Made by a program: the position numbers and the translations under genes. The notes below the pieces were generated by a model that was not told the DNA's origin, did not search any database, and saw nothing but the letters and a program-made list of their open reading frames with translations. This document shows positions 14,460 to 17,496 of a stretch of 64,000 bases of DNA, piece after piece. This stretch comes from Roseobacter sp. (GTDB taxonomy: Bacteria > Pseudomonadota > Alphaproteobacteria > Rhodobacterales > Rhodobacteraceae). Each line of letters opens with the position of its first letter. Position 1 is the first letter of the stretch. Location: contig JAGXGZ010000081.1 of NCBI GenBank assembly GCA_024636495.1, forward strand, positions 1 through 64,000. Reading direction: 5' to 3'.

Positions 14460-16280
14460 TTACCGATCAGGGTCGATCCACCAGACTTCAGGCATATAGT
14501 TCGGCCCGTCACCGTAAAGCGGTACGTGGGCGGGATATTTCATTTCGGCAATATGGGCGATGCGGTCTTCGGTGAACTGCCAGAACGGGATGACATAGCG
14601 CCCGGCGGTCAATGCGCGGTCAAGCGCCTGGGTCGCGGCCGTGAAGTCTTCGGTGCTGGTGGCGCTGACCATCGTGTCGATCATGGCGTCGATGGCCGGG
14701 GACTTGGCCCCCATCATGTTGCGGCTGCCGGGCTGGTCTGCCGCCTCAGATCCCCAGTAATAGCGCTGTTCATTGCCGGGGCTCAGCGACAAGGCACGCC
14801 GGAAAACCGCCATATCAAAGTCGAAATCGGCATTGCGCGCAACGAATTGGGCATCATCCACCGCATCCACGGTCACGTCGATCCCCAGCCGCTTCAACGC
14901 CTGAATGTAAAGTTCTGCAATGGCCATGTTTTCGGTGCTGCCCTTGGACAGTAGAATGGAAAAGGCCAGCGGTGTCCCTTGAGCGTCGCGCATGGTACCG
15001 TCTTGGGCGCTAAAGCCTGCCTTCGTCAGCGCCTCCATCGCAGCGCCTATGCCCGACCGGTTCCGCGCAGAGCCGTCAGAGACAGGCAACGCATAACCCT
15101 CAAGCGCGCCGGCAGGCAGGCTTTCCTTGAACGGCTCAAGCAGCGCGGCCACCCGCCCGGTCGCCGGACCCTTGGCCATCGCCAGCGGCGAGTTCGAGAA
15201 ATACGAGGTGATGCGAGGCTGTGCGCCACCTGTCAGAGTCTCGTTGATAAACTCGAAGTTGAATGCCGCGATCATCGCTTCGCGCACGCGAATGTCATCA
15301 AAGGGCGCACGACGCGTGTTCATCACAAATCCCGTCATTCCTGACGGCTTATTGTGCGAGAACGTGGATTTAACCACATCGCCCCGTTGCACGGCAGGGA
15401 AATCATATTGCGTTTCCCACGTCTCGGCGTTGAATTCGCGGATGGCCGAAATTTCGCCCGCCTTGAACGCCTCGAACAGCACATTGGCATCACCGTAAAA
15501 ATCAAGCTTGATCTGGTCGATGTTGTTTGTGCCGCGCCGAAACGGCACGTTTTTGCCCCAATAGTCTGGGTTACGCGTCAGGGTCACCTGCCGTCCGGCC
15601 TGATAATCGGTGACTGTGTAGGGGCCGGACCCCAAAGGAATATCAGCCAAGGGTGCATTGGCGAAATCGCGGCCTTCCCATTGCGCTTTGCTTAGAATGG
15701 GGCGCATGCCCGCCAGCAGTGCCAGTTCGCGGTTATCGGTGTTGAAGGCCATCCGTACGCTGCGCGGGCCAGTCTGTGTGATGCTTTCAATTTGCGCACG
15801 CAGACCGTGATAGCGCGGATGCCCTTCGGTCCCCAGCAACTCGTAGCTAAAGATCACATCCTCGGGGGTCACTGGGCTGCCATCGGAAAAGCGGGCCTCG
15901 GGTCTAAGGGTGAATTCAACCCACGACCTGTCCTCTGGCACTTCAACCGATTCGGCCAATAGACCGTAAAGAGAGAAGGGTTCATCCCAGGATCGGCCCA
16001 TCAGCGTCTCGTGGGTGAAAAAAGGAAGCTGCCAAGGCGATGTGCCTTTGCGCACGAACGGATTAAGGCTGTCAAAGCCGCCGGTGTTGCCCAGCACGAT
16101 TGTGCCGCCCATGGGCGCATCCGGGTTTGCATAGGGGAGGGACACAAAATCCTGTGGCAACGCAGGTGTGCCATACATAGATATCCCGTGCATCGGTTCA
16201 GCCAGCACATTGCCCGACCACAGAATCAGTGAAGAAACAGCCGCAACCGCCCGACAGGTTTGGAAAAAATATGAGGTCAT
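14460..16280 (-). CDS. ABC transporter extracellular solute-binding protein, family 5 (YejA-like)
   Basis: Signal peptide; HGISMYGTPALPQDFVSLPYANPDAPMGGTI, FDSLNPFVRKG, MGRSWDEPFSLYGLLAES, FTLRPEARFSDGSPVTPEDV. Confidence 0.9.
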   Translation of the reverse strand: MTSYFFQTCRAVAAVSSLILWSGNVLAEPMHGISMYGTPALPQDFVSLPYANPDAPMGGTIVLGNTGGFDSLNPFVRKGTSPWQLPFFTHETLMGRSWDEPFSLYGLLAESVEVPEDRSWVEFTLRPEARFSDGSPVTPEDVIFSYELLGTEGHPRYHGLRAQIESITQTGPRSVRMAFNTDNRELALLAGMRPILSKAQWEGRDFANAPLADIPLGSGPYTVTDYQAGRQVTLTRNPDYWGKNVPFRRGTNNIDQIKLDFYGDANVLFEAFKAGEISAIREFNAETWETQYDFPAVQRGDVVKSTFSHNKPSGMTGFVMNTRRAPFDDIRVREAMIAAFNFEFINETLTGGAQPRITSYFSNSPLAMAKGPATGRVAALLEPFKESLPAGALEGYALPVSDGSARNRSGIGAAMEALTKAGFSAQDGTMRDAQGTPLAFSILLSKGSTENMAIAELYIQALKRLGIDVTVDAVDDAQFVARNADFDFDMAVFRRALSLSPGNEQRYYWGSEAADQPGSRNMMGAKSPAIDAMIDTMVSATSTEDFTAATQALDRALTAGRYVIPFWQFTEDRIAHIAEMKYPAHVPLYGDGPNYMPEVWWIDPDR

Positions 16281-16359
16281 TTTCGAAACAATCCAGTTCT
16301 GCCCTTGTTTTGTTAGCTCAAGTCTTAACGCCGCTAGCTGGGGTTATCAAACTTTAAGC

Positions 16360-16388
16360 TTGGATTACGGCGCAGGTTTGCGTATAAA
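16360..16388 (+). promoter_or_regulatory. Putative sigma70-type promoter (TTGGAT-N17-TATAAA)
   Basis: -35 TTGGAT at 16360-16365, -10 TATAAA at 16383-16388, spacer exactly 17 bp. Confidence 0.5.
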
Positions 16389-16393
16389 GAGAT

Positions 16394-16471
16394 CACTGCT
16401 CGATAGGTTTCTTGCCTGTATGAAACCTGCCTCAATAACTTAGCGTCCGCTTCGTGCGGACGTTTTTTTTT
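16394..16471 (+). ncRNA. Candidate intergenic small RNA with two hairpins, the second an intrinsic terminator
   Basis: Promoter-like motif upstream; hairpin AGGTTTC-N10-GAAACCT (16405-16428); CGTCCGC-TTCGT-GCGGACG + T9 terminator. No convincing ORF in the unit. Confidence 0.5.
16444..16471 (+). terminator. Rho-independent terminator
   Basis: Perfect 7-bp GC-rich stem CGTCCGC/GCGGACG followed by nine T. Confidence 0.85.
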
Positions 16472-16584: not shown

Positions 16585-17370
16585 ATGGCCTATACGATCA
16601 ACCTTTCGGGAAAAACTGCCGTTATTACCGGATCCAATTCCGGCATCGGGCTGGGGATCGCGTGGGCACTTGCGCGGGCGGGGGCCGATGTCGTGCTGAA
16701 CTCCTTTACGGATCGCGACGAGGACCACGCCATCGCCGAAGAGATCGCCAAGGAAACGGGCGTAACGGCACGCTATATCAAGGCAGACATGTCCAAAGCC
16801 GACGAATGCCGCCAGTTTATCGCCGATGCAAAGACATGCGATATCTTGGTGAATAACGCAGGCATTCAGCATGTGGCACCGATCCCGGATTTCCCTATGG
16901 CGAAGTGGGATGCAATCCTTGCTATCAACCTCAGTTCCGCATTTCACACATCGGCCATTGCTTTGCCGATGATGCGCAAAGCGGGATGGGGCCGCGTGAT
17001 CAACATCTCCTCAGCCCATGGCCTGACGGCATCGCCCTTCAAAGCGGCCTATGTTGCAGCGAAACATGGCATTGTGGGGCTGACCAAAGTCACCGCTCTT
17101 GAGACCGCGAAAGAGCCGATCACCTGCAACGCCATCTGCCCGGGCTATGTGTTGACCGATATCGTGGAAAAGCAGATTCCCGATACGATGAAGGAATATG
17201 ACATGAGCCGCGAAGATGTGATCAAGAACGTCATGCTTGAACGCCAGCCCAGCAAGGAATTTGCAACCGTTGAACAGTTGGGCGAGACCGCCACGTTCCT
17301 ATGTTCGGATGCCGCAGCACAGATCACAGGTACCACGCTGAGCGTTGATGGCGGCTGGACAGCACTTTAA
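16585..17370 (+). CDS. bdhA: 3-hydroxybutyrate dehydrogenase (SDR family)
   Basis: GKTAVITGSNSGIGLGIA, LVNNAGIQHVAPI, YVAAKHGIVGLTK, CPGYVLTDIVEKQIPD; start at ATG 16585. Confidence 0.88.
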   Translation: MAYTINLSGKTAVITGSNSGIGLGIAWALARAGADVVLNSFTDRDEDHAIAEEIAKETGVTARYIKADMSKADECRQFIADAKTCDILVNNAGIQHVAPIPDFPMAKWDAILAINLSSAFHTSAIALPMMRKAGWGRVINISSAHGLTASPFKAAYVAAKHGIVGLTKVTALETAKEPITCNAICPGYVLTDIVEKQIPDTMKEYDMSREDVIKNVMLERQPSKEFATVEQLGETATFLCSDAAAQITGTTLSVDGGWTAL

Positions 17371-17380
17371 GAACTTTTAT

Positions 17381-17465
17381 GCCTTCGACGAGGATATTTA
17401 AGAGCCAGAGAAGAGACCCCTCGGTCACCTTTATTCTCGGGCTCTTAAATATCTCCGCCGGAGGC
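17381..17465. repeat. REP-like imperfect inverted repeat
   Basis: GCCTTCGACGAGGATATTTAAGAGCC (17381-17406) versus the reverse complement of 17440-17465 (GCCTCCGGCGGAGATATTTAAGAGCC), 22/26 identical. Confidence 0.75.
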
Positions 17466-17496
17466 GTCTTTCTTTGGATAAGGGCGGCACGTTGCT

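Follow-up and report, generated by a model that had tools for sequence, protein, structure and literature searches.

A stand-alone small RNA of Sulfitobacter, the probable counterpart of StsR, is conserved across the Rhodobacteraceae together with its complement in the mraZ leader

Introduction

The window analysed here, a stretch of 64,000 nucleotides, encodes on its plus strand (16395..16471) a stand-alone small RNA (sRNA) that we identify, with a probability of roughly 0.86, as the Sulfitobacter StsR, a trans-acting RNA predicted to act on UpsM and the leader of the dcw cluster. The identification is based on the partner of the RNA, its size, its promoter type and its presence in a genome congeneric with Rhodobacter sphaeroides, the StsR of R. 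sphaeroides itself being compared by its published description.

StsR is a 72-nt sRNA of R. sphaeroides that is controlled by RpoHI/RpoHII and binds UpsM and the dcw 5' UTR (PMC8307010). It binds Hfq and promotes the cleavage of UpsM by RNase E (PMC8307010). The RNA is induced by stress and slows cell division through cleavage of the leader of the cell-division genes; its other published target is the rpoE mRNA, which is paired just after the start codon. UpsM is the terminated mraZ leader, 206 nt in length and cut to 130 nt (PMC5089854, PMC6238624), and long leaders of this terminated kind are typical of mraZ in the Rhodobacteraceae (PMC5089854). The StsR-UpsM switch from stress to cell division is known in one model species. 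The present comparison would extend its reach to nearly all sampled genera of the family, marine roseobacters included, with both halves, the sRNA and the UpsM site, retained.

An sRNA gene with its own promoter and terminator

Transcription probably starts at A16395 and the 3' end lies in the T run, which gives an RNA of about 72-77 nt. The covariance model R1, built from 35 Sulfitobacter loci, matches positions 16395-16470 and spans 76 positions, in agreement with the transcript of ~75 nt predicted in a preliminary description of this DNA. The two structures named in that description are both present in the sequence. Hairpin 1 (16404..16429, plus strand) has eight pairs between the arms TAGGTTTC (16404-16411) and GAAACCTG (16422-16429) around a 10-nt loop, TTGCCTGTAT, and all eight pairs are invariant in 35 sequences. 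The GC-rich intrinsic terminator (16442..16471, plus strand) consists of a 9-pair stem (16442-16464) and nine T (16463-16471), and is listed with nine pairs by a terminator scan of the window. Dinucleotide shuffles average -13.6 +- 2.3 kcal/mol, and the sRNA strand, at -24.2 kcal/mol, reaches a folding energy below that of all 200 of them (z = -4.65). The RNA has the core AGGTTTCTTGCCTGTATGAAACCTGCC. Its predicted pairing region for the mraZ leader is TGCCTGTATGAAACCTGC (16413..16430, plus strand), and the 5' heptamer CTGCTCG (nt 2-8; 16396..16402, plus strand) is a candidate for pairing with a second site. The gene is present in a single copy in the window's own genome.

The -35 element TTGGAT (16360..16365) and the -10 element TATAAA (16383..16388) lie on the same strand, separated by a spacer of 17 nt. 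Among 195 distinct upstream regions from Rhodobacteraceae, the family promoter reads CAAACTTTTAGCTTGGA-N18-TATAAAG. The -35 consensus is CTTGGA/C, with T-35, T-34 and G-33 at 100, 91 and 95%, and the -10 consensus is TATAAAG, with T-12, A-11 and T-10 at 96-98%, so that each of these six positions is 91-100% conserved. An upstream box, CAAACTTT (-47 to -40; 16348..16355, plus strand), is 79-94% conserved per position and is followed by TAAG and then by the -35 element. The promoter had been called near-consensus. It is present and conserved in the family, but that wording was generous: a sigma-70 scan of the window listed no promoter at the sRNA, because TTGGAT matches TTGACA at only 3/6 positions. 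TTG at -35 and TAT at -12 are features of RpoHI/HII promoters (PMC10673084) and occur here, while the T-9 that RpoHI needs (PMC3441632) is absent. The promoter could be read by sigma-70.

Conservation and distribution

The sRNA was found in all 35 congeneric genomes. Covariance model searches recovered it, in one copy, in 293 of the 298 sampled genera of Rhodobacteraceae, and in 150/150 genomes of the order; in the family search it was present in 261 of 263 good genomes. The class sample outside the family yielded one marginal match (G403, 32.7 bits), which we take as chance, as the mraZ leader of this genome has no partner site (-16.1 vs a mean of -15.2). Named carriers include Ruegeria, Paracoccus, Rhodovulum, Roseovarius, Leisingera, Cereibacter and Rubellimicrobium; their loci were picked by exact match to the core and so show breadth, not invariance.

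Conservation is concentrated in the 5' part of the RNA. Nucleotides 1-47 are invariant in the 35 Sulfitobacter loci and nt 1-41 are almost invariant family-wide: 19 of the 25 lowest-scoring members lack any mismatch in nt 1-40, whereas positions from nt 42 onward vary freely. In the 35 loci the terminator stem varies with all pairs kept (100% of cells paired), three pairs having changed on both sides; covariation is uninformative on hairpin 1, because this hairpin never varies within the genus. A covariance search in Rhodobacteraceae had been suggested beforehand as a check, and a lack of conservation of promoter and hairpins as grounds for refuting the candidate; both promoter and hairpins are conserved. 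The comparative analysis thus supports a stand-alone sRNA gene whose own promoter and terminator are kept in relatives.

In Paracoccus NZ_CP038206.1, NZ_CP035287.1, CP038202.1 and NZ_CP038196.1, the sRNA gene lies on replicons of 1.5-2.2 Mb filed as plasmids. Two of these are typed as conjugative and none is the record filed as the chromosome. PLSDB has nothing annotated at the sRNA locus of these replicons, and a phage search did not find the sRNA. Several small-genome marine lineages (L272-L276, L098, L100) carry an intact core.

Complementarity to the mraZ leader

The sRNA is complementary over about nt 19-36 to CAGGTTTCATACAGGC, a sequence conserved in the leader of mraZ in the dcw cluster (site 1). 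The reverse complement of the pairing region occurs in the mraZ leaders of most genomes as an exact match of 12-18 nt, and by complementarity site 1 is conserved in 53 of 64 leaders. In 50 of 63 leaders, the duplex energy with the sRNA beats that of all 100 shuffled sRNA cores. In the window's genome the duplex energy is -30.0 kcal/mol, with shuffled cores giving a mean of -20.1.

The site in this genome, GCAGGTTCATACAGGCA, has one T fewer, which leaves a 1-nt bulge in the duplex. A search with the uninterrupted 18-mer complement therefore matched the sRNA itself alone, while the form lacking the T has its sole perfect match in the 3.88-Mb genome in the mraZ leader. This leader is distributed over two contigs whose ends overlap (the end of G000:C40 and the start of G000:C76), and for this reason the pattern search matched its single site twice.

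As StsR is the known partner of UpsM, complementarity of the core to UpsM marks the sRNA as very probably the StsR counterpart. The RNA resembles StsR (RSs0827; PMC8307010) in length (about 72-77 vs 72 nt), in being stand-alone, in its complementarity to the UpsM/dcw leader, in its promoter with a TTG-type -35 element and in its occurrence in the family Rhodobacteraceae. Cereibacter flavus, from the genus of R. sphaeroides, also encodes it, with the full core and a length of about 75 nt when counted through the T run. The differences are that the window belongs to another genus and that RpoH dependence, Hfq binding and cleavage are known from R. sphaeroides only; the Hfq-type layout of the window sRNA fits the Hfq binding published for StsR (PMC8307010). 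UpsM (RSs0682; PMC5089854) shares with the window sRNA a family-wide distribution, the appearance of a stand-alone sRNA and an intrinsic terminator. It differs in being a 206-nt leader in cis to mraZ; the window sRNA, which is complementary to UpsM, comes from a separate locus. A text search of the literature for the core sequence returned unrelated primers only, and no discussion of RSP_0826-0828 was found in the R. sphaeroides papers searched.

The position of site 1 fits the published cleavage. It starts about 145-150 nt before the terminator T run in mraZ leaders, and in C. flavus 148 nt before the end of that run; this spacing would put the 5' end of the published 130-nt product immediately 3' of the duplex.

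In G162 the genome's own sRNA-leader pair scores -33.8, against -29.7 with the standard core, which is suggestive of a compensatory change in sRNA and leader. Some diverged lineages (G118, G088) have no clear UpsM site and no clear compensatory change; G088 does have 10 nt complementary to its altered sRNA 5' end, but in the wrong order.

A second complement and a possible two-site clamp

Site 1 alone cannot explain the conservation of the RNA, because conservation is just as strict in nt 1-18 and 36-41 as in the UpsM-complementary part. This invariance, together with the comparison to StsR by description instead of by sequence, is what speaks for a genuine family-wide sRNA other than StsR, for which the complementarity to the mraZ leader would be one of several pairings. 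We consider this unlikely: StsR is the partner known for UpsM, length, UpsM binding and family distribution coincide, and the RNA is present in Cereibacter and in single copy. Near-invariance over 41 nucleotides, unusual in a trans-acting sRNA, leads to predictions about a second pairing site that can be tested.

A candidate for such a site exists. Of 53 leaders, 36 contain CGAGCAG, the complement of sRNA nt 2-8, at a distance of 36-52 nt (about 48) on the 3' side of site 1. The leader of the window's genome is among them, and the order of the two sites is correctly antiparallel. Permuted heptamers matched a mean of 1.1 leaders, and 3 of 500 shuffles reached at least 36. As a caution, the whole UpsM hairpin around CGAGCAG is conserved, and the heptamer is missing from several diverged lineages. 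The small-genome marine lineages mentioned above have a rearranged mraZ leader in which site 1 is retained and CGAGCAG is not.

In predicted folds, UpsM keeps site 1 moderately accessible (P unpaired 0.5-0.7) and pairs the adjoining U-rich stretch on its 3' side with the 5' end. Folding simulations with site 1 blocked gave an open cleavage region for just one leader out of nine. Blocking of site 1 by itself thus fails to free the U-rich stretch in most genomes, a problem that the second complement may solve. We tentatively propose, at somewhat below even odds, that StsR grips UpsM at two in-register sites (CAGGTTTCATACAGGC and CGAGCAG) and thereby clamps open the U-rich RNase E region, which would explain the 41 near-frozen nucleotides.

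Proposed mechanism

The gene, its conservation and its complementarity were obtained here, and RpoHI/HII control, UpsM binding and cleavage are results of others in R. sphaeroides; we infer by analogy that the same control, binding and cleavage operate in Sulfitobacter. Stress or stationary phase would lead an RpoH-type sigma factor to transcribe the RNA of about 75 nt. Pairing with CAGGTTTCATACAGGC, in UpsM and in the read-through dcw mRNA, would involve the loop and 3' arm of hairpin 1 (about nt 19-35). Because the 10-nt loop lies almost wholly inside the pairing region, contact is likely to be made by the loop first, with the 3' arm unzipping afterwards. The 5' heptamer CTGCTCG may pair with the second UpsM site about 48 nt further 3', and the U-rich stretch between both sites would be left open. 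Cleavage of this stretch by RNase E would then remove UpsM and lower dcw expression.

Genomic context and coding potential

The sRNA lies between two genes with the directions stated in the preliminary description, leftward for the left gene and rightward for bdhA. On the left, a gene on the minus strand (14460..16280) encodes a 606-aa ABC transporter component, an extracellular solute-binding protein of family 5 type (NCBIfam matches below the curated cut-offs). Of 167 loci, 156 have this gene as the adjacent divergent neighbour of the sRNA, most often 114-116 nt away from the core (mode 115); two of the small-genome marine lineages (L098 and L100) have lost it. Upstream of the sRNA -35 element, within 16281-16359, a CAAACTTTTAG box is conserved to about the same degree as the promoter. 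The near-fixed distance to the solute-binding gene and this conserved box suggest a shared, overlapping divergent control region. On the right, bdhA (16585..17370, plus strand) encodes 3-hydroxybutyrate dehydrogenase (TIGR01963, E 1.9e-108, above the cut-off). The interval between bdhA and the next gene contains an inverted repeat (17384-17470; AGGATATTTAAGAGCC / GGCTCTTAAATATCT and CTCCGCCGGAGG), which looks like a terminator or a dispersed repeat.

In most loci bdhA follows the element on the same strand after 115-300 nt, as would be expected if the element were a cis-acting bdhA leader, an attenuator or riboswitch combining a bdhA promoter with a regulated terminator. Such a leader is very improbable. 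bdhA lies within 700 nt of the sRNA in 114 loci, and the RNA is unchanged where the gene is 1-2.3 kb away (9 loci) or did not turn up (36 loci, some with limited sequence length), which argues against a role as its leader. Moreover, hairpin 1 and the terminator have no competing fold, and the core matches a trans partner instead.

Within the RNA, the frame ATG AAA CCT GCC TCA ATA ACT TAG (16420-16443) could be read as a short gene for the peptide MKPASIT, and 95 of 202 loci do read MKPASIT followed by a stop. In 74 of the 202, however, there is no stop before the terminator stem, so the frame is probably not coding. Nucleotides 28-41 are invariant, without synonymous drift, which fits a constraint at the level of RNA and not of protein; the ATG is located within the hairpin and no obvious ribosome site precedes it. 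We regard a coding function as highly improbable.

Relation to other sRNA families

At gathering scores, Rfam reported a tRNA alone over the window and no family at the sRNA locus. The claim of an unannotated sRNA thus holds in that the sRNA is real and without an Rfam family; the sRNA is nevertheless of a known kind, given that the UpsM/dcw leader contains a complement to its invariant core. With no matching model in Rfam, StsR-type genes go unannotated, and the present alignment could found a family. Membership in the alphaR8/MmgR (suhB, RF00519) or Hrs13 (RF02631) families is rejected and has a negligible probability: despite weak overlapping matches (Hrs13 21.6 bits, suhB/mmgR 20.2 bits), a similar two-hairpin layout and an effect of MmgR on polyhydroxybutyrate that recalls the adjoining bdhA, both scores are far below gathering (52 and 41, respectively), the single-stranded 10-mer UUUCCUCCCU that the alphaR8 family carries and that defines it (PMC12559287) is absent, and no N-formylglutamate amidohydrolase gene, the usual neighbour of alphaR8, adjoins the sRNA.

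Two known systems are nevertheless similar in part. The alphaR8/MmgR/SisA-D RNAs (RF00519; PMC12559287) are likewise alphaproteobacterial two-hairpin sRNAs with an exposed C/U-rich segment, from which the window sRNA is set apart by the missing UUUCCUCCCU and its score of 20.2 against a cut-off of 41. The CrfA sponge of Caulobacter (PMC12559287) is likewise an RNA that targets another sRNA, there in nutrient stress. CrfA has an unrelated sequence and neutralises its targets, the Sis sRNAs; StsR instead marks out UpsM and its mRNA as RNase E substrates.
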